64,000 bases of DNA, taken from contig CAADGV010000042.1 of the NCBI GenBank assembly GCA_900696645.1, positions 76,363-140,362 on the forward strand, given 5' to 3'. Under the pieces are notes generated by a model. It was given only the letters and a program-made list of their open reading frames with translations. It made no database searches and was not told the DNA's origin. Source of the stretch: an uncultured Chlorobiota bacterium (GTDB lineage Bacteria > Bacteroidota > Ignavibacteria > UBA10030 > UBA6906). Positions 3,815 to 24,817 of this stretch are shown one piece after another (within the stretch, counting starts at the first letter, position 1; every line of letters starts with the position of its first letter). A program made the translations under genes and the position numbers.

Positions 3815-5935
3815 CTACACTCCAAATCCCCAAAGCAAACCGACCCTGTACACCACAAACGTCACCACGTACGCAAGCGCTGTCATATAGCCGAGCTGGA
3901 ACAAAGGCCATTTCCATGAGTTTGTTTCCCGCTTCAATACGGCGAGCGTCGACATGCACTGCATGGCAAGAACGTAGTACACCATCACGCAAATTGCCGT
4001 CAGGGCGGTCCATACGGGAAGCCCCGTTTCGGGATCGATGTCGTTCCTCATCTGTTGCTGAAGTGAGAGGGAGCCCGACTCATCGTCAGAGTTCTGGATG
4101 TTATAGATAGTTCCCATCGTACTGACGAACACTTCACGCTGCAACAGCGAGGCGATAATTCCAATTCCAATCTTCCAATCAAATCCCAGCGGCTTGATAA
4201 CCGGCTCAATCAGTTGTCCCGCCTTGCCCACAAAACTGTGCTGCAATTGTTCTGCGGGCGTTACTCCTTCAACTCTCGGATATGTCGCGAGGAACCAGAG
4301 AATGATTGACACTCCGAGGATGATTGTGCCGGCGTTTTTCAGAAACAGCTTCGATCTCTCCCACATTTGCAACAGAACGGACTTTAGCGAAGGCAGCTTG
4401 TACGGCGGAAGCTCCATTATAAAGAGCGGCGCCGCTCCGCGAAGCAATGTCTTCTTGAAGAGCCAAGCCATACTGAGCGCCATCACGAGTCCCAGCAAGT
4501 ACATCGACAGCAACGTCAGAGCCGGGAGCGAGAGAAAACCCAGAACGTGATCGTGAGGAATGAATGCGGCAATCAGCAACGCATACACCGGAAGCCGTGC
4601 GCTGCAACTGACAAGCGGCGACACAAGCATCGTTACGAGACGATCTTTCGGGCTTTCAATAGTACGGGTTGCCATGATTCCCGGAATTGCGCAGGCGAAT
4701 GAACTGAGCATGGGAATGAATGACTTGCCGTGCAGCCCGACTTTGCTCATGAGCCTGTCCATAATGAACGCTGCACGCGCCATATATCCGGTATCTTCAA
4801 GCAGGCCAAGGAAGAGAAAGAGAAACAGGATTTGCGGGAGAAAGGTAACAACCGCCGCGACTCCGGCAAGGCCGCCATTGATCAGAAGATCGCGCAAATC
4901 ACCGGCGGGCATTACTTCGTGAATGTGATTGCCAATCGAGTCAAAACCCTCGCCGATAAGATCCATCGGAACTGTTGCCCAGGTAAAGATCGTCTGGAAA
5001 ATCAGCGCCATAAGCCCGACAAAAATGACGAAGCCCCATATCCTGTGAGTAAACACGCGGTCAAGTTTGTCACTTGTGCTGAGCGCGGAAGTCTGAGCTT
5101 GCGTTACTGCTTTCCCGCACACACTCTTTATCCATTCATAGCGCGCCTCGACTACAACCGACTGCCGGTCGATTCCCATGAAATCGAGGCGTTCATGATC
5201 TTTCTGCACGTGGGCAAGAAGCTCCGGTGCAAACCGGTCGCGGTGTTCTTCAAGAGCTTCCGGCGATGTAAGAAGCGTCAGAGCTTCGTCAAATGCCGAG
5301 TTTTCATTGAGCTTGTGGTACTGTTGCAGCAGACCGACCAGTTCCCCGCACTCCTCTTCAACAAGAGCCGGCATACTCCACGGCCGCTTTTGTGCGGTTC
5401 GGGATTGTGCATTGGCAATGCTCTCTTTCAGTTCGTTGATGCCGATTCCCTTGTTTGCGATTGTAGCAACAACCGGCACGCCGAGTTCACGCTCGAGCAT
5501 CTTGACATCTACTTCAATACCTGCCTCTTCTGCAACATCAATCATATTCAATGCGACAACTACCGGAATTTGCCTGTCGAGAATCTGGCTCACAAGGTAC
5601 AGGTTTCGTTCGATGTTGCTCGCATCCACAACGCACACGACCACATCGGGCCTCTGCGTATGTTCGGCGCGACCGAGAAGGATGTCGGTTGCAATTTTCT
5701 CATCGGGGGAAGTGGCATTCAGGCTGTAGGTGCCCGGCAAATCGAGAAGCGTTGCCTCCGAATTGCCCGCTAATGTGAGACGGCCTTCTTTTTTCTCGAC
5801 CGTCACGCCGGGATAGTTGCCGACCTTTTGCCGCAAACCCGTAAGCGCATTGAAGAGAGTCGTCTTCCCGCAATTCGGATTACCGATGAGGGCAACGTAT
5901 CGCACACGAACCTGTTTGACTGTTTCAAATGTCAT
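3815..5935 (-). CDS. feoB: Ferrous iron transport protein B (first copy)
   Basis: Inner-membrane Fe(II) importer with a cytoplasmic GTPase. The 706 residues are of full family length. The G domain shows G1 GNPNCGKTT (18-26), G3 DLPGTYSL (65-72), G4 NMID (130-133) and a G5-like IANKGIG region. A helical spacer follows. Two gate repeats carry conserved cysteines, for example in SSFACAIPGIMATRTIES and VSPLVSCSARLP. The start overlaps the feoA stop by four bases (ATGA), so it is coupled to feoA. It is followed at once by the Cys-rich partner. The position behind fur points to control by iron status. A second, different FeoB is encoded near 21 kb. Confidence 0.97.
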   Translation of the reverse strand: MTFETVKQVRVRYVALIGNPNCGKTTLFNALTGLRQKVGNYPGVTVEKKEGRLTLAGNSEATLLDLPGTYSLNATSPDEKIATDILLGRAEHTQRPDVVVCVVDASNIERNLYLVSQILDRQIPVVVALNMIDVAEEAGIEVDVKMLERELGVPVVATIANKGIGINELKESIANAQSRTAQKRPWSMPALVEEECGELVGLLQQYHKLNENSAFDEALTLLTSPEALEEHRDRFAPELLAHVQKDHERLDFMGIDRQSVVVEARYEWIKSVCGKAVTQAQTSALSTSDKLDRVFTHRIWGFVIFVGLMALIFQTIFTWATVPMDLIGEGFDSIGNHIHEVMPAGDLRDLLINGGLAGVAAVVTFLPQILFLFLFLGLLEDTGYMARAAFIMDRLMSKVGLHGKSFIPMLSSFACAIPGIMATRTIESPKDRLVTMLVSPLVSCSARLPVYALLIAAFIPHDHVLGFLSLPALTLLSMYLLGLVMALSMAWLFKKTLLRGAAPLFIMELPPYKLPSLKSVLLQMWERSKLFLKNAGTIILGVSIILWFLATYPRVEGVTPAEQLQHSFVGKAGQLIEPVIKPLGFDWKIGIGIIASLLQREVFVSTMGTIYNIQNSDDESGSLSLQQQMRNDIDPETGLPVWTALTAICVMVYYVLAMQCMSTLAVLKRETNSWKWPLFQLGYMTALAYVVTFVVYRVGLLWGFGV

Positions 5936-6174
5936 GACGGTTCCTTGTGTACGAGTACTGTCTCGGCTTCAAGTTTGCGGAGTGAAAGGCGGTATCCCTT
6001 TACCCGAACCTCTATCGGATCGCCCATCGGGGCATAGCGGATTAACTCGATGGCTGTTCCTTTTGTCAGCCCCATTTCCATGAGTCGCTGGCGAACGCTT
6101 GAAGTCTTGGTGGTTATCCGGGCAATCGTGCCGCGTTCTCCGGGAGTTAACGTGCTAAGCGTTACTTCGTTCAT
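5932..6174 (-). CDS. feoA: FeoA family protein (adjacent to feoB)
   Basis: Small cytoplasmic SH3-like protein that binds and supports FeoB. The 80 residues from MNEVTLSTLTPGERG match family length. The core contains the signature LMEMGLTKGTAIELIRYAPMGDPIEVRVKGYRLSLRK, given here only by its first and last parts: MEMGLTKG and VKGYRLSLRK. An in-frame start 40 codons earlier would run into the second feoA copy, so I chose the internal ATG. It overlaps feoB by four bases and sits one base after the upstream feoA-like gene. Confidence 0.93.
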   Translation of the reverse strand: MNEVTLSTLTPGERGTIARITTKTSSVRQRLMEMGLTKGTAIELIRYAPMGDPIEVRVKGYRLSLRKLEAETVLVHKEPS

Positions 6175-6175
6175 G

Positions 6176-6415
6176 TTATTCGAATGATGAAACCACAATC
6201 GAGCTTGCAACAAGCTGATTGAGGCCGATACGTGTGTTGCAGACTTCGCATATAATAGTACCGCTGCCTTTGCTGACGCACCGGACGACGGCATTTTCGC
6301 AGAAGCCCATCTCGCGAAGCCGCATACAGAAATCCGGTTGCGAATTCAGTTGACGAATCCGTACTCTCTGTCCCATGGGAACATCTGTCAGTGAAAGATG
6401 ACTGTTGTGGTGCAT
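6176..6415 (-). CDS. feoA: Second FeoA domain protein, Cys-rich variant
   Basis: A 79-residue FeoA/SH3-like protein starting MHHNSHLSLTD. The family core is recognisable (MRLREMGFCENAVV...). Unlike the neighbouring copy, it carries five cysteines, including a CEVC pair near residues 57-60, and a His-rich N-terminus. These could bind metal, but that is inference. Tandem feoA genes before feoB are common in this phylum. It lies seven bases downstream of fur and one base upstream of the other feoA, so all are probably on one transcript. Confidence 0.85.
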   Translation of the reverse strand: MHHNSHLSLTDVPMGQRVRIRQLNSQPDFCMRLREMGFCENAVVRCVSKGSGTIICEVCNTRIGLNQLVASSIVVSSFE

Positions 6416-6422
6416 GGTATTC

Positions 6423-6866
6423 TCAAACCTTTTTCCTGCATTTGGAGCATGTGCCAAAAATCTGAATTGTCGTACTCTGAATTTCAAAGCCCTTGCTGTT
6501 TGCCATTTCTTCCTGAATCCGTTCAAGCCGGTCGCTTGTGAACTCGATGATATCACCGCAATTCAGGCAGATCATGTGGTGATGATGAGGCCGGCCAAAC
6601 GCCTTTTCGTACCGCGACGTGTTCTCCGCAAATCTGTACTTCGATACGAGACCGCACTCCTGTAGTACCTCGAGTGTGTTGTACACAGTCGCCTTCGACA
6701 CTTTCACGCCGTTTGAAATAAGCCGGTAGTACAACGCTTCCACATCAAAGTGACCCTGGCTCTGAAGAACAGCATCAAGAATAGCAAACCGCTCCGGCGT
6801 AGCTCGTTGCTTTCCGTTCGATTTGAGATGTTTGGTGAGAATTTCGTGAGCGGCTTGTGTGTCCAT
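6423..6866 (-). CDS. fur: Fur family metal-responsive transcriptional repressor
   Basis: DNA-binding repressor of iron-uptake genes. The 147 residues include a winged helix (about 20-85, RATPERFAILDAVL... VSKATVYNTLEVL) and a dimerisation/metal domain with HHHH, CLNCG and C-terminal CSKC, the structural zinc pairs. The residue after SRY is Glu (SRYEKAF), as in Fur-type sensors, whereas peroxide-sensing PerR usually has Asp there, so I favour Fur. It heads the feo operon. A perfect inverted repeat lies just upstream of its start, which suggests autoregulation. Confidence 0.92.
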   Translation of the reverse strand: MDTQAAHEILTKHLKSNGKQRATPERFAILDAVLQSQGHFDVEALYYRLISNGVKVSKATVYNTLEVLQECGLVSKYRFAENTSRYEKAFGRPHHHHMICLNCGDIIEFTSDRLERIQEEMANSKGFEIQSTTIQIFGTCSKCRKKV

Positions 6867-20053: not shown

Positions 20054-21484
20054 TCAACCGCCCGCCGTCGCCAATCTCCATACTTGAGCAACGAGAAAGC
20101 AGAGGCTCAGGCCCATAGCAATTGGCATCAGCGACGAGACCAGTGTCCACTTCACGCTTCCTGTTTCTTTGTAGATGGTGTAGATAGTTGTTGAACAGGG
20201 ATTGTGGATCAGACTGAACAGCATCAGGTTTACGGCAGTGAGAAGCGTCCATCCCCCCGCCTGAAATACTGACAGATATTGAAGATTATCTTCAAGCTCA
20301 AACAACACACCGGCACCCTCGCCGTAGCCCGAAACGCCCGTGCTTGCAACGGTGAGCATCAGTATTGTCGGGATGACGATTTCATTTGCGGGAATTGCAA
20401 TAATGTACGCAAGAAGAATGACGCCGTTCAATCCAATCAGTAGCCCGAACGGATTCAGCCAGTTGATTGCGTACTCTGCAATGCTCAATTCTCCGACATG
20501 AATGTTTGAGATAAGCCAGATAACGGCGCCCGCAGGAACGGCAAACATTACAGCGCGCCACAATACAAGAATCGTCCTGTCAATCAGCGACGTATAAAGC
20601 GTCTTGAGGACCTGCGGCGGCCGGTACGGCGGGAGTTCAAGACTGAACGTTGATGCCTCGCCTTTCAGCACTGTTCGCGAAAGGAACCACGACGTCAGAA
20701 ATGTCAAGGCAATGCCGAAGAGCGCAACCGCCACTACAGCCGAGGCGGAAAGAAATCCGCTGAGAGCCGGAGGCGCAAGGGCGCCGATGAACAACGTTGC
20801 AACCAGTATTTGCGTCGGCCAGCGTCCGTTACACAACGAGAAATTATTGGTGATGATGGCAATGAGCCGTTCGCGTGGACTGTCAATAATGCGCGTTGAA
20901 ATGATGCCGGCCGCGTTGCATCCGTAGCCCATGCTCATGGAAAGCGCCTGCTTGCCGTGTGCCCCGGCCTTTCGGAACAAATGGTCAAGATTGAACGCAA
21001 CACGCGGCAAGTATCCGAAATCCTCAAGTAAGGTAAACAGCGGAAAGAAAATCGCCATCGGCGGCAGCATGACACTCACGACCCACGCCGTTGCAAGATA
21101 CACACCATCGAACAAGAAGCCGGATAGCCACCACGGCATGCTCAGACTTTCGCCGAGGGAACGCAAGACGGGATGGACCGTGTCAAGCAGCAACGAGGCG
21201 AGCAACGACGAGGGAACATTCGAACCTGCGATCGTCAGCCAGAACACAACCATCAACAAAAGTATCATGATAGGAAAACCCGTCCAGCGGCCCGTAAGCA
21301 GCTTGTCGAGTGCTCTGTCCCAGTTGAATCTCCCGGGCGCGCCAGATCGTGTCACCACACGATCGGCTATCCGCGAAGCTTCCGTGTACAAGGACTCCAT
21401 GAGGGAATCATGTAAATTTTCACCCACTTCCCAACGAAGGTTTCCCGCCTTCAGCAGGATATCATCATTCGAAATTGCATTCAT
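20054..21484 (-). CDS. feoB: FeoB-type permease half (second system, C-terminal part)
   Basis: Integral membrane part of a second FeoB, 476 residues with about nine helices and two gate repeats. Gate motifs differ from the first Feo[21 protein letters not shown] and a second block [13 protein letters not shown], both keeping the cysteine. A helical spacer (about 1-70) precedes the helices. The GTPase half is a separate gene; its stop overlaps this start by four bases (ATGA), so the two are made together. Known type-2 FeoB proteins with altered gates include manganese-transporting ones, so Mn(II) or Fe(II) is possible. Confidence 0.9.
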
Positions 21485-22305
21485 TCCAATACTCCTTCCC
21501 CGACAGTCTCCCGTGGAAGTTCTGTTAAGCTGAGAATGCTTGTGATCTCACCTGTTCTCACGGCACTAATTATGCGATCATCTCCCTCGAGCAACCGGAG
21601 CGCGACCCAGCGGGCATTGGTCAGGCCGGGAAATTTTGACTGTAAAGATTCTGCCAGACTGCCAATTGCCTTTTCAAGTTGAGGGGCGTGTTTGACGATG
21701 CGCTTGGGTTTGGGAATCACAGCGCCCGTCGCAACATCATGAATAGTATGCAGAAGATCTTGAATGCCGATTCCGCGTCGTGCAGCCGTGGGAACAACAG
21801 GAACCCCGAGATCCTTTGCAAGAGTCCGTTCCGCAACCGCAATACCGAGCCGTTGCGCTTCATCAATCAGATTAAGGCAAACAATTGCCCGGTCGGTAAT
21901 TTCGAGAACTTGCAAAGCCAGATTGAGATTCCGCTCAAGCCGCGTGGCGTCAACAACAATAACTGTAACATCGGGCTGCCCGAAGAGAATGAAATTCCGG
22001 GCCACTTCTTCATCTGTGCTTGTAGAGAGAAGCGAGTAAGTTCCCGGAAGATCGACAAGTTTGTATCTCTTATCGGAATACGAGAATGCTCCCTCGGCCC
22101 TCGTAACCGTTTTACCGGGCCAATTGCCGGTGTGTTGCCTGAGGCCCGTAAGCGCGTTGAAGACGGTACTCTTGCCGGTATTCGGATTTCCTGCAAGTGC
22201 GACAACATAATCTGTCCCTTCAAGATTGATTCCGAGCTTCACAAGGTTGGCCACATTGTGCGCCGGACAGGTTTCGCAAGCACGTGTTGTTTGGGCTGTG
22301 TTCAT
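21481..22305 (-). CDS. feoB: FeoB-type GTPase half (second system, N-terminal part)
   Basis: Cytoplasmic G protein of 274 residues with G1 GNPNTGKST (39-47), G3 DLPGTYSL (85-92), G4 NLID (near 150) and G5 region AARRGIG. An extra N-terminal stretch carries Cys10 and Cys13 (CETC), absent from the first FeoB. The gene stops at the spacer region where the permease gene takes over, at an ATGA overlap. The start overlaps the preceding DtxR-FeoA gene by four bases as well. A natural gene fission is more likely than a sequencing error because both overlaps are clean. Confidence 0.93.
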
Positions 22306-23348
22306 ACTCCGTTCGCTCCGTTTCGTTCGATGTGTATCATGCGTGCCTGATTCTTACGCAGGGCGATCAACGCGCCGCGCACGCTGTATGCCGTCGGATC
22401 GCCGGCGGCATTGCGCATTTCGGCTGTAACCAATGTGCCGGGAAGAATCCCGAGATCCATCAACCGTCGTCGTTGCGGCCCGCGGCATGCTCGGGAAATA
22501 CCCGCAACCCGTGCACTCTCTCCCACTGCGAGGTCGGCGAGTGTTGCCCCGGCTTTCTCGGTTCTCGTCACTCGCCCGACAGGAACCACGGCAACGTTTG
22601 CCGCGACAATTGGGGCGAGGATATTCTCAACCCCTTCGACCTCAACTTCGATCTTGTTCTTGTCGCTGCTGATCATGCGAACGTGAGCCCCTGGGTGAAT
22701 ACCCTGGGCCACAAGCTGGGCATAGACAGCAGTCGGTTCATCCTCTATGTGTACAACCTCCGCATACTGATGGGGCCGCAACTGTGTCAAGGCAATACCG
22801 CGTCGCTCGGGCAGTTCACCCGCAGCCGTTGGAATCGGGTCACCATGCGGATCAAATGAGGGATTTCCCATGTGCACCGCAAGTGCATCGGCTTGTTCAA
22901 TTGTAAGAAGATGTTCCTTCGCCTCCGCCTGATAATGCCATTCCGTTTCGCTGACTCCTGTTTCATCGGCGAGATATCGTTCCCATAGCCGGTGCATGCG
23001 TATGACACGCAACGCATACGCCCTTCCGTCTTCCGTGAGAGTCAACATTTCTCCCTCCGAGCGAAGCAAGTTGAGGCCCTCGAGCCGCTCCAAAAGGCGT
23101 GCGACTTCATCACCGGAGATCGAAAGCGCCCCCGCAATGCTTTTGTGTGTTGCTGTGAGCTGTTTGTACTCGCAATCATAGACATGCTTGAGGGCGTCCT
23201 CTATGCGGACACGCCGCGTATTCTGCAGCGTGCGCCGCCAACGCGCCCACAGACCCCGGTTGGGCCAAAATACAACGGCAAGTATTGAAATCGCTATGCC
23301 CGCCCACAGCAGGGCAATTTCAGGATTGATCAATGCGTGTGATTCCAT
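22302..23348 (-). CDS. Membrane-anchored DtxR-like protein fused to FeoA domains
   Basis: 348 residues with an unusual plan: one N-terminal transmembrane helix (about 9-27), a basic turn (RGLWARWRR), a DtxR-type winged helix (47-125), the DtxR dimerisation/metal region with [14 protein letters not shown] (161-174), an SH3-like segment (188-258) and a full FeoA domain (265-342; [15 protein letters not shown]). Conserved His and Glu residues in [12 protein letters not shown] match metal ligands of DtxR/MntR proteins. It sits directly upstream of the split feoB genes, overlapping by four bases. Likely a metal-sensing FeoA subunit tied to the transporter, or a membrane-bound repressor. I chose the start one base after the upstream stop. 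Confidence 0.85.
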
Positions 23349-23349
23349 T

Positions 23350-24003
23350 TTACACCCGCTCCACAAATATCGAATCAGCAACCTGCCTGCTGACGAAATG
23401 TTCCTTCTTCCCTATCTTGATCGTCAGCGAACCATCAAACGGCATTTTCTGTTTGACGGTGATTCTACTGTTGAGTGCAACGCCAAGTGACGCAGCGTGT
23501 TGCAGAATGGCAGAATCCTCGTCGCTTACACGCAGTACACGCACCACATCGCCCGCCTCATGTGCCGCAAGCGCTGTACAGGATCTGTTCGGCAGTTTTC
23601 CGTCAACAGTCGGTATCTCATCGCCGTGTGGATCGCCGGTGGGATGGCCAAGTGCAGTATCAATGGCATGCTCGAGTTCGGCCGACGTTACGTGTTCAAG
23701 CCGTTCCGCTTCGTCATGCACTTTGTCCCACGAGTAGGCGAGAAACTCGACGAGGAACATCTCCCACAATCGATGGCGACGCAAAATGCCCAGCGCCATC
23801 TTCACCCCCTGTTGCGTCAACTCAACTCCCTGATAGCGTTCGTAGTGCAGCAATCCTTTGTCCGACAACTTCTTGATCATGTCGGTGATCGAGGCATCGG
23901 CGACACCCAGTTGGCTGGCAAGCGCGGACGTGGTTGCTTTCTCGCCCCGCACCTCAAGCTTGTAGATCGCCTTAATGTAGTCTTCAGTACTTATCGTAGA
24001 CAT
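23350..24003 (-). CDS. DtxR/MntR family metal-dependent repressor
   Basis: A 217-residue soluble repressor of metal-uptake genes. Winged helix (1-70: ISTEDYIKAIYKLE ... ADASITDMIKKLSDKGLL), dimerisation and metal domain (WDKVHDEAERLEHV, GHPTGDPHGDEIPT) and a C-terminal SH3/FeoA-like domain. It starts the operon for the second FeoB. An inverted repeat of DtxR/MntR style lies about 14 bp before the start. Whether it senses Mn or Fe cannot be told from the sequence. Confidence 0.92.
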   Translation of the reverse strand: MSTISTEDYIKAIYKLEVRGEKATTSALASQLGVADASITDMIKKLSDKGLLHYERYQGVELTQQGVKMALGILRRHRLWEMFLVEFLAYSWDKVHDEAERLEHVTSAELEHAIDTALGHPTGDPHGDEIPTVDGKLPNRSCTALAAHEAGDVVRVLRVSDEDSAILQHAASLGVALNSRITVKQKMPFDGSLTIKIGKKEHFVSRQVADSIFVERV

Positions 24004-24016
24004 ATCTCAAAATGAT

Positions 24017-24032
24017 TTTAGGTTCAACTAAA
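24017..24032. promoter_or_regulatory. DtxR/MntR-type operator
   Basis: TTTAGGTTCAACTAAA is an imperfect dyad (TTTAG - 6 nt - CTAAA) close to known DtxR-family boxes. It lies 14 bp upstream of the regulator start and suggests that the regulator controls its own operon. A second half site (TCTAACC) occurs near 24049. Confidence 0.6.
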
Positions 24033-24136
24033 TATCAATTTACATATATCTAACCGAATGTCAAGTAAAATTTTCCCAAGGCGGGAAAATGCGCCCGAAA
24101 CAGTTCTTTTTGGGGGGATTCCGGAGAGATGGAGTG

Positions 24137-24817
24137 TTACTTGGCTTGCTTTTTCTGCTCAAACAACTCGTCGGGCAAACCACTGTTGATGCGGTAGTCT
24201 GAGTAGCGGATTTGGATCGTTCCTTGCCGGGGAACGAGGGATGGTCGACGCTGCTGAACATTGTCGGACACTGATGCTTCAGAGGTATCGACGGCGAGGG
24301 TTGCAGTCAGCCGGACGGGCAGCCAGTACCCCTCCAGCTTTTCGTACTCGAAGTCTGTTTGAATGTTTCTTCCGCCCGGTTGCAAAGAAGCAATTCGCAA
24401 CACCGTCCAGTTCGCCGGATTTACAGTAACGAGGGGCCGGGCGTTCGTCTTACGCGCTTTGGGTTTGAGGGTAAGAACATACAACGCATTCTCTTCTTTC
24501 ACCTCTTCGACGTCATAGCGCGAGGTCAAACTGCCGGGGGCAAAACTCAATCCTTCTTTCGGCAGCAATGCAAATCCTTCCGAATCGAAATGGAATTTGT
24601 CCGGCTGCTTGAAGTACATCGTTGCTTTCATCTGCGGGACTTTGAGGCGTTCGAGATCGACCTTGGCTTCAAGGGAAACAGTGTAGTCTTGAATACCGGC
24701 AAAGTTCGCTTCAACGTACTTCAGTATTGCTTCGCCGGAAAGTTGCGGGCGAGTCTTCCCCTGCACGAAACTCGCGGCAAGCAGAACAAGAAAAGTAATT
24801 GCAGTACACCGCATCAT
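24137..24817 (-). CDS. LolA-like outer-membrane lipoprotein carrier family protein
   Basis: A 226-residue exported protein: signal peptide 1-20 (FLVLLAASFVQG), then a LolA/LppX-like half-barrel (VEANFAGIQDYTVSLEAKVD ... YFKQPDKFHFDS ... NWTVLRIASLQPGGRNIQ). Family members carry lipids or lipoproteins across the periplasm, but this one is distant and the role is uncertain. Its start overlaps the stop of the upstream transporter gene, so the two are translationally coupled. The gene contains no transmembrane helix after the signal sequence. Confidence 0.7.
   Translation of the reverse strand: MMRCTAITFLVLLAASFVQGKTRPQLSGEAILKYVEANFAGIQDYTVSLEAKVDLERLKVPQMKATMYFKQPDKFHFDSEGFALLPKEGLSFAPGSLTSRYDVEEVKEENALYVLTLKPKARKTNARPLVTVNPANWTVLRIASLQPGGRNIQTDFEYEKLEGYWLPVRLTATLAVDTSEASVSDNVQQRRPSLVPRQGTIQIRYSDYRINSGLPDELFEQKKQAK

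Follow-up and report, generated by a model that had tools for sequence, protein, structure and literature searches.

A membrane-tethered DtxR-FeoA protein paired with FeoB: probably a FeoA subunit rather than a DNA-binding regulator

Introduction

Does a DtxR fold that is anchored in the membrane and encoded directly ahead of FeoB still read DNA, or has it become part of the transporter? The question is raised by one gene in a 64,000-nt stretch of DNA from an uncultured Chlorobiota bacterium; we call this whole stretch the window. A sequence-only reading of the gene had proposed that the tethered domain could sense cytosolic metal and gate FeoB directly. The field has yet to settle by what means FeoA controls FeoB and what shuts FeoB off once metal suffices. 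The interaction of FeoA with the FeoB GTPase domain is nucleotide-dependent, and FeoA slows GTP hydrolysis (PMC8980893). A survey of FeoAB fusions took out DtxR-FeoA fusions by hand (PMC8980893), and a study of Feo evolution merely mentions FeoA with an additional domain (PMC8749426). We found no published tethered or membrane-bound DtxR-FeoA protein in the open PMC literature (subscription journals were outside the search), and we describe the family here as a variant of the Feo system whose DtxR fold has been repurposed.

Results

Locus and gene junctions

The gene lies second in a tightly packed four-gene operon on the minus strand. First comes a free DtxR/MntR-type regulator (23350..24003, 217 aa), an ordinary DtxR matching PF01325 (8.6e-17), PF02742 and FeoA. 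It is followed by the tethered DtxR-FeoA-FeoA protein (22302..23348, 348 aa; Pfam and AlphaFold2 model), with its ATG at 23348 and its stop ending at 22302, then by the FeoB GTPase half (21481..22305, 274 aa), with intact G motifs and an N-terminal CxTCPxH motif, and the FeoB permease half (20054..21484, 476 aa), with a GYGCNAAG gate-type motif. The cut that splits FeoB lies between GTPase and permease, in the helical region on the cytosolic side, and leaves the GTPase motifs intact. A single base separates the dtxR stop from the tethered ATG (TAA-A-ATG), and a GGAG ribosome-binding-like sequence ahead of the tethered gene sits within the 3' end of dtxR. Both lower junctions, of the tethered gene with the GTPase gene and of the latter with the permease gene, are 4-nt overlaps. 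Because of the 1-nt gap and the two overlaps, the genes of the operon are probably translationally coupled. The sequence-only reading was thus right about the position, strand and domain make-up of the gene, its coupling to both FeoB halves and the free DtxR ahead of it. Upstream of the operon is a LolA-like gene (24137-24817, minus strand), kept there in the sister genome L033.

Architecture of the tethered protein

Pfam found Fe_dep_repr_C (5e-23) and, in two stretches, FeoA (4e-25) in the tethered protein; the DtxR DNA-binding model PF01325 had no match in it. Among 22 tethered proteins tested, all matched PF02742 and all matched PF04023 (FeoA). An AlphaFold2 model built with 22 relatives (pLDDT 88.5, pTM 0.77) ordered the chain as a transmembrane helix, a long linker helix (residues 33-61), a winged helix, a dimer/metal domain and two SH3 barrels. 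This bore out the proposed combination of transmembrane helix, DtxR winged helix with metal ligands, and FeoA/SH3 domains. By hydropathy and the model the transmembrane helix spans residues 9-27 (23268..23324, minus strand, as are all the following). Alignment and model place the winged helix, whose wing is very short and whose DNA-contact positions are not conserved, at residues 47-104 (23037..23210), and the first SH3/FeoA-like domain, with an invariant H-x-E-D-E-P, at residues 183-257 (22578..22802). Pfam and alignment place the metal-binding/dimerisation domain, with conserved ligands, at residues 105-174 (22827..23036), and the C-terminal FeoA domain, with invariant R293-R295 and stand-alone homologues described below, at residues 269-341 (22326..22544). 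In a structure comparison the closest solved structures to the model were DtxR-family repressors, topped by 5zr6, which is manganese-dependent (Z 24.8; 206 residues at rmsd 1.5).

By hydropathy across the family, the transmembrane helix is real. The 19-residue Kyte-Doolittle maximum exceeded 1.5 in 101 of 105 distinct N-termini, with a mean of 2.5, which rules out a wrongly chosen start codon, the artefact that the sequence-only reading had named as its own possible undoing. Lys and Arg residues averaged 0.4 before the helix and 5.9 after it (distinct N-termini), so by the charge rule the body of the protein is predicted to be cytosolic (N-out/C-in). Four family members (L135, L136, L142 and L144) have no N-terminal transmembrane helix, yet they too lie directly upstream of FeoB; on the tree, the members without the helix require at least three changes.

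FeoB is the fixed partner

In a phylum-wide sample of 296 genomes from 140 genera, the tethered protein was found in 33 genomes and 29 genera. A wider scan with one genome per species yielded at least 591 relatives. The best 80 of these span about ten phyla (Bacteroidota, Ignavibacteriota, Balneolota, Calditrichota, Gemmatimonadota, Chloroflexota, Acidobacteriota, Verrucomicrobiota, Planctomycetota and Myxococcota), the phylum names being those of record titles, many from metagenome bins. The nearest permease relatives outside the genus are in Calditrichota, Verrucomicrobiota and Chloroflexota records (L073, L068 and L083), which suggests inter-phylum transfer of the module. Cultivable environmental hosts of the module include Maribacter and Cyclobacterium.

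Neighbourhoods were compared at 112 loci, equivalent to about 108 genomes since at least four loci repeat a genome already in the set (e.g. L067 and G136). FeoB lay downstream on the same strand within 150 bp in 111; the remaining locus ends at a contig end. In the same 111 the tethered gene is the immediate upstream neighbour of feoB, and no second feoA intervenes. By contrast, a free DtxR was within 3 kb in only 65 loci. We therefore regard FeoB as the fixed partner of the tethered protein. Two features of the window locus on which the sequence-only reading had dwelt are real there and dispensable elsewhere: the FeoB split, present in 86 loci and absent from the 25 with a whole FeoB, is not essential to the pairing, and the free DtxR is no obligate partner, being absent within 3 kb at 47 loci. 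Of 20 genomes lacking an adjacent free dtxR, 19 had a PF01325-positive DtxR elsewhere. No natural fusion of the tethered protein to FeoB was found among the loci examined; long apparent fusions, such as that in L081, where the overlapping frames differ, were judged to be open-frame extensions in G+C-rich DNA.

Stand-alone FeoA in the same slot

The strongest evidence for the role of the tethered protein comes from genomes in which it is replaced. The same 296 genomes were searched with the permease half at a cut-off of 1e-60; 37 carry this FeoB class, every one at an E-value of 1e-195 or better. The tethered protein is present in 33 of the 37. In the other four (L147-L150) a stand-alone FeoA occupies its slot, immediately upstream of the GTPase half, and a free dtxR either belongs to the operon or lies behind the permease in convergent orientation. 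These FeoAs, about 77-81 aa long (122 aa from an upstream start in L149), share 42-50% identity with the tethered protein's C-terminal FeoA domain. The permease tree needs at least two switches between tethered protein and stand-alone FeoA. This exchange in one and the same slot argues that the tethered protein fills the role of FeoA.

The DNA-reading surface

We compared the tethered proteins with the free DtxRs of the operons at metal-ligand and DNA-contact positions, all in IdeR numbering, using 15 contact positions listed in PMC8464063 (14 for entropy, T7 being left out). In the free DtxRs the contact positions are mostly conserved: Y11 is Tyr, T44 is Met in all, S42 is Thr or Ser and R47 is Lys. 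In the tethered family Y11 is Ala in 77 and P39 most often Asp, and the S42, Q43 and R60 positions have no consensus. Mean entropy at the contact positions was 2.64 bits for tethered vs. 1.56 bits for free proteins; measured against the rest of the domain after equal-number subsampling, the contact positions differed by +0.28 for tethered proteins and by -0.39 for free ones. When contact positions were permuted inside the winged helix, neither group gave a significant result on its own (tethered P=0.16, free P=0.10), so we use only the contrast between the groups. The winged helix carried an average net charge of -1.3 in tethered vs. +2.3 in free proteins, and PF01325 matched only 4 of 22 tethered proteins, weakly (best 1.6e-4), vs. 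20 of 20 free neighbours. The two kinds of sequence part on a single tree branch (SH-aLRT 99). The comparison with the soluble neighbours that the sequence-only reading had called for supports the structural part of its proposal: ligands are conserved (below), contacts are variable, and retention of all DNA-contact residues, half of the finding that it held would tell against it, was not seen.

Since indirect readout dominates DNA recognition by IdeR (PMC8464063), losing the named contacts is by itself no bar to DNA binding. Together these comparisons make a DNA role for the tethered protein unlikely.

A possible operator for the free regulator was noted, as a lead only: a 16-bp imperfect palindrome, TTTAGTTGAACCTAAA, at 24017..24032 (minus strand) within the promoter region 24004-24136, 14-29 nt upstream of dtxR, with a TTGACA box just ahead of it. 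In sister genome L033 the equivalent position has TTTAGGTTTATCTAAA. A search for a shared operator word in 64 dtxR upstream regions gave just A+T-rich words and weak GCATACTTAA-like ones.

Metal site and likely metal

The metal ligands proposed for the tethered domain have been kept, nearly invariant across the family. The alignment shows no variation at the equivalents of H79, E83, H98, E105 and H106, which in the window protein are H119, E123, H138, E145 and H146; at the M10 position 101 of 106 tethered proteins have Asp, and at the C102 position 80 of 106 have Glu. Asp and Glu at these positions resemble MntR; where MntR has its ligand E11, 104 of 106 carry Lys. The free DtxRs differ at the primary-site M10 position, with Asn in 24 of 39 where the tethered proteins have Asp.

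The closest described protein is PgMntR of Porphyromonas gingivalis (PG1044), which likewise has a DtxR winged helix, a metal/dimer domain and two C-terminal FeoA domains, and whose gene is likewise in an operon with a FeoB, the manganese transporter FB2 (PMC4805248); its authors noted 41 twin-FeoA relatives. PgMntR is soluble, with no N-terminal transmembrane helix and its DNA-binding domain at aa 13-65, has Cys108 in its primary site where the tethered family mostly has Glu, and binds the promoter of its operon in a manganese-enhanced manner (PMC4805248), whereas the tethered proteins are predicted to be membrane-bound and are unlikely to bind DNA.

The genome has exactly two FeoBs, the split one of the tethered operon and a whole one (3815-5935, minus strand, 706 aa). 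The latter belongs to a canonical-looking iron system at 3815-6866 (minus strand), followed by a TonB-dependent-receptor-like gene. This system begins with what we read from sequence as a Fur-type gene (6423-6866) and continues with two FeoA-type genes (about 6176-6556 and 5932-6294), all on the minus strand; its FeoB is apparently the natural iron system of the genome. The MntR-like Asp and Glu, the manganese-dependent structural matches, the manganese FeoB beside PgMntR and the separate iron FeoB, all of them indirect signs, make us lean, short of a claim, to Mn2+ or dual Mn2+/Fe2+ as substrate of the FeoB with the tethered protein.

Two motifs were noted in this FeoB. The GTPase half starts with a conserved C-x-x-C-P-type motif (CETCPAHN), the same in L033-L054 and absent from the canonical FeoB, which is possibly a further metal or Fe-S site. 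At about residue 190-200 of the permease half is a GCNAAG gate motif (GCNVAG in L043), vs. the CAIPG type in the canonical FeoB of the window; it could bear on metal selectivity.

Discussion

We think it probable, on FeoB pairing at 111 of 112 loci and a stand-alone FeoA in the same slot in four relatives, that the tethered protein serves a distinct FeoB class as its FeoA subunit, carrying at its N-terminus a membrane-anchored, metal-sensing DtxR fold that does not read DNA. FeoA and the FeoAB fusions offer a partial likeness: B. fragilis FeoAB likewise sets a FeoA/SH3 domain beside the FeoB GTPase, but FeoA and these fusions have neither transmembrane helix nor DtxR core (PMC8980893). Classical DtxR, IdeR and MntR repressors share the fold and the metal ligands, but they keep the DNA-contact residues, are soluble and free-standing, and have one SH3 domain or none.

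In the mechanism that we envisage, the DtxR core would dimerise at the membrane and bind cytosolic Mn2+ or Fe2+. Its metal occupancy would shift how the C-terminal FeoA domain engages the GTPase half of FeoB, and the altered contact would lower uptake when cytosolic metal is sufficient; for the sign of this effect we only have homeostatic logic to guess from. Slower transcriptional feedback would come from the neighbouring free DtxR. Direct gating of FeoB by metal through the tethered protein is what we infer from these sequences. The Mg2+ channels CorA and MgtE, in which a cytosolic metal-binding domain closes the transporter, are a working analogy only, as their folds and transporter families are unrelated.

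A less likely arrangement, although the likeliest of the rivals, also has the protein as an anchored FeoA subunit but gives its DtxR core no regulatory sensing: the core would serve for structural dimerisation, or would accept metal at the mouth of FeoB on the cytosolic side. The genomic evidence requires no more than a role as FeoB subunit, conserved ligands would suit an acceptor too, and the twin SH3 domains could serve as docking modules. Yet the ligand set is that of a regulatory site, and the corresponding residues of PgMntR bind tightly (overall Mn Kd 2e-11 M, PMC4805248), more as expected of a sensor than of a transient acceptor.

We consider it very improbable that the protein is a membrane-bound transcription factor, in the manner of ToxR or CadC, acting on the operator of its operon. 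The winged helix is intact as a fold in the AlphaFold2 model, and promoter binding by PgMntR shows what a protein with the same twin-FeoA ending can do (PMC4805248). However, the contact positions of the tethered family are unconserved and its winged helix is net negative, PF01325 rarely recognises it, nearly every genome tested encodes a DNA-binding DtxR, whether next door or elsewhere, and a lone FeoA fills the slot in four. We give least credence to a FeoC-like stability factor, in which the DtxR core, through its metal or redox state, would control FeoB proteolysis and not gating, since, although FeoC is a small winged-helix-motif protein that binds FeoB (PMC5519574) and shields it from FtsH (PMC10710835), no FeoC Pfam match was found in the window protein or the relatives tested, the family alignment showed no conserved set of Cys residues, and the conserved site is the DtxR metal site. 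FeoC and the tethered protein would be alike in acting on FeoB rather than DNA, as the literature has it for FeoC, but FeoC is soluble, with a 4Fe-4S cluster and without DtxR metal site, FeoA domain or transmembrane helix, whereas the tethered protein is a DtxR-FeoA protein of 348 aa.

Returning to the metal-sensing FeoA subunit, its wider history can be drawn tentatively, with somewhat less than even confidence: a DtxR fold may have been recruited, probably once, as an anchored importer subunit that senses the imported metal and shuts the importer, and may then have spread across about ten phyla. If so, the importer would be under post-translational feedback in parallel to the transcriptional feedback by the free sister DtxR. 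Because the fusion links FeoA with a metal-sensing domain that is well understood, point mutations in the known ligands offer a way to probe the coupling. Databases would call the tethered protein a DNA-binding metal regulator, when it looks like an anchored part of an uptake system, and hundreds of DtxR-domain proteins are probably misnamed as transcription regulators in this way. If the sensor reading is true, the FeoB pump may sense the metal level of the cell directly.
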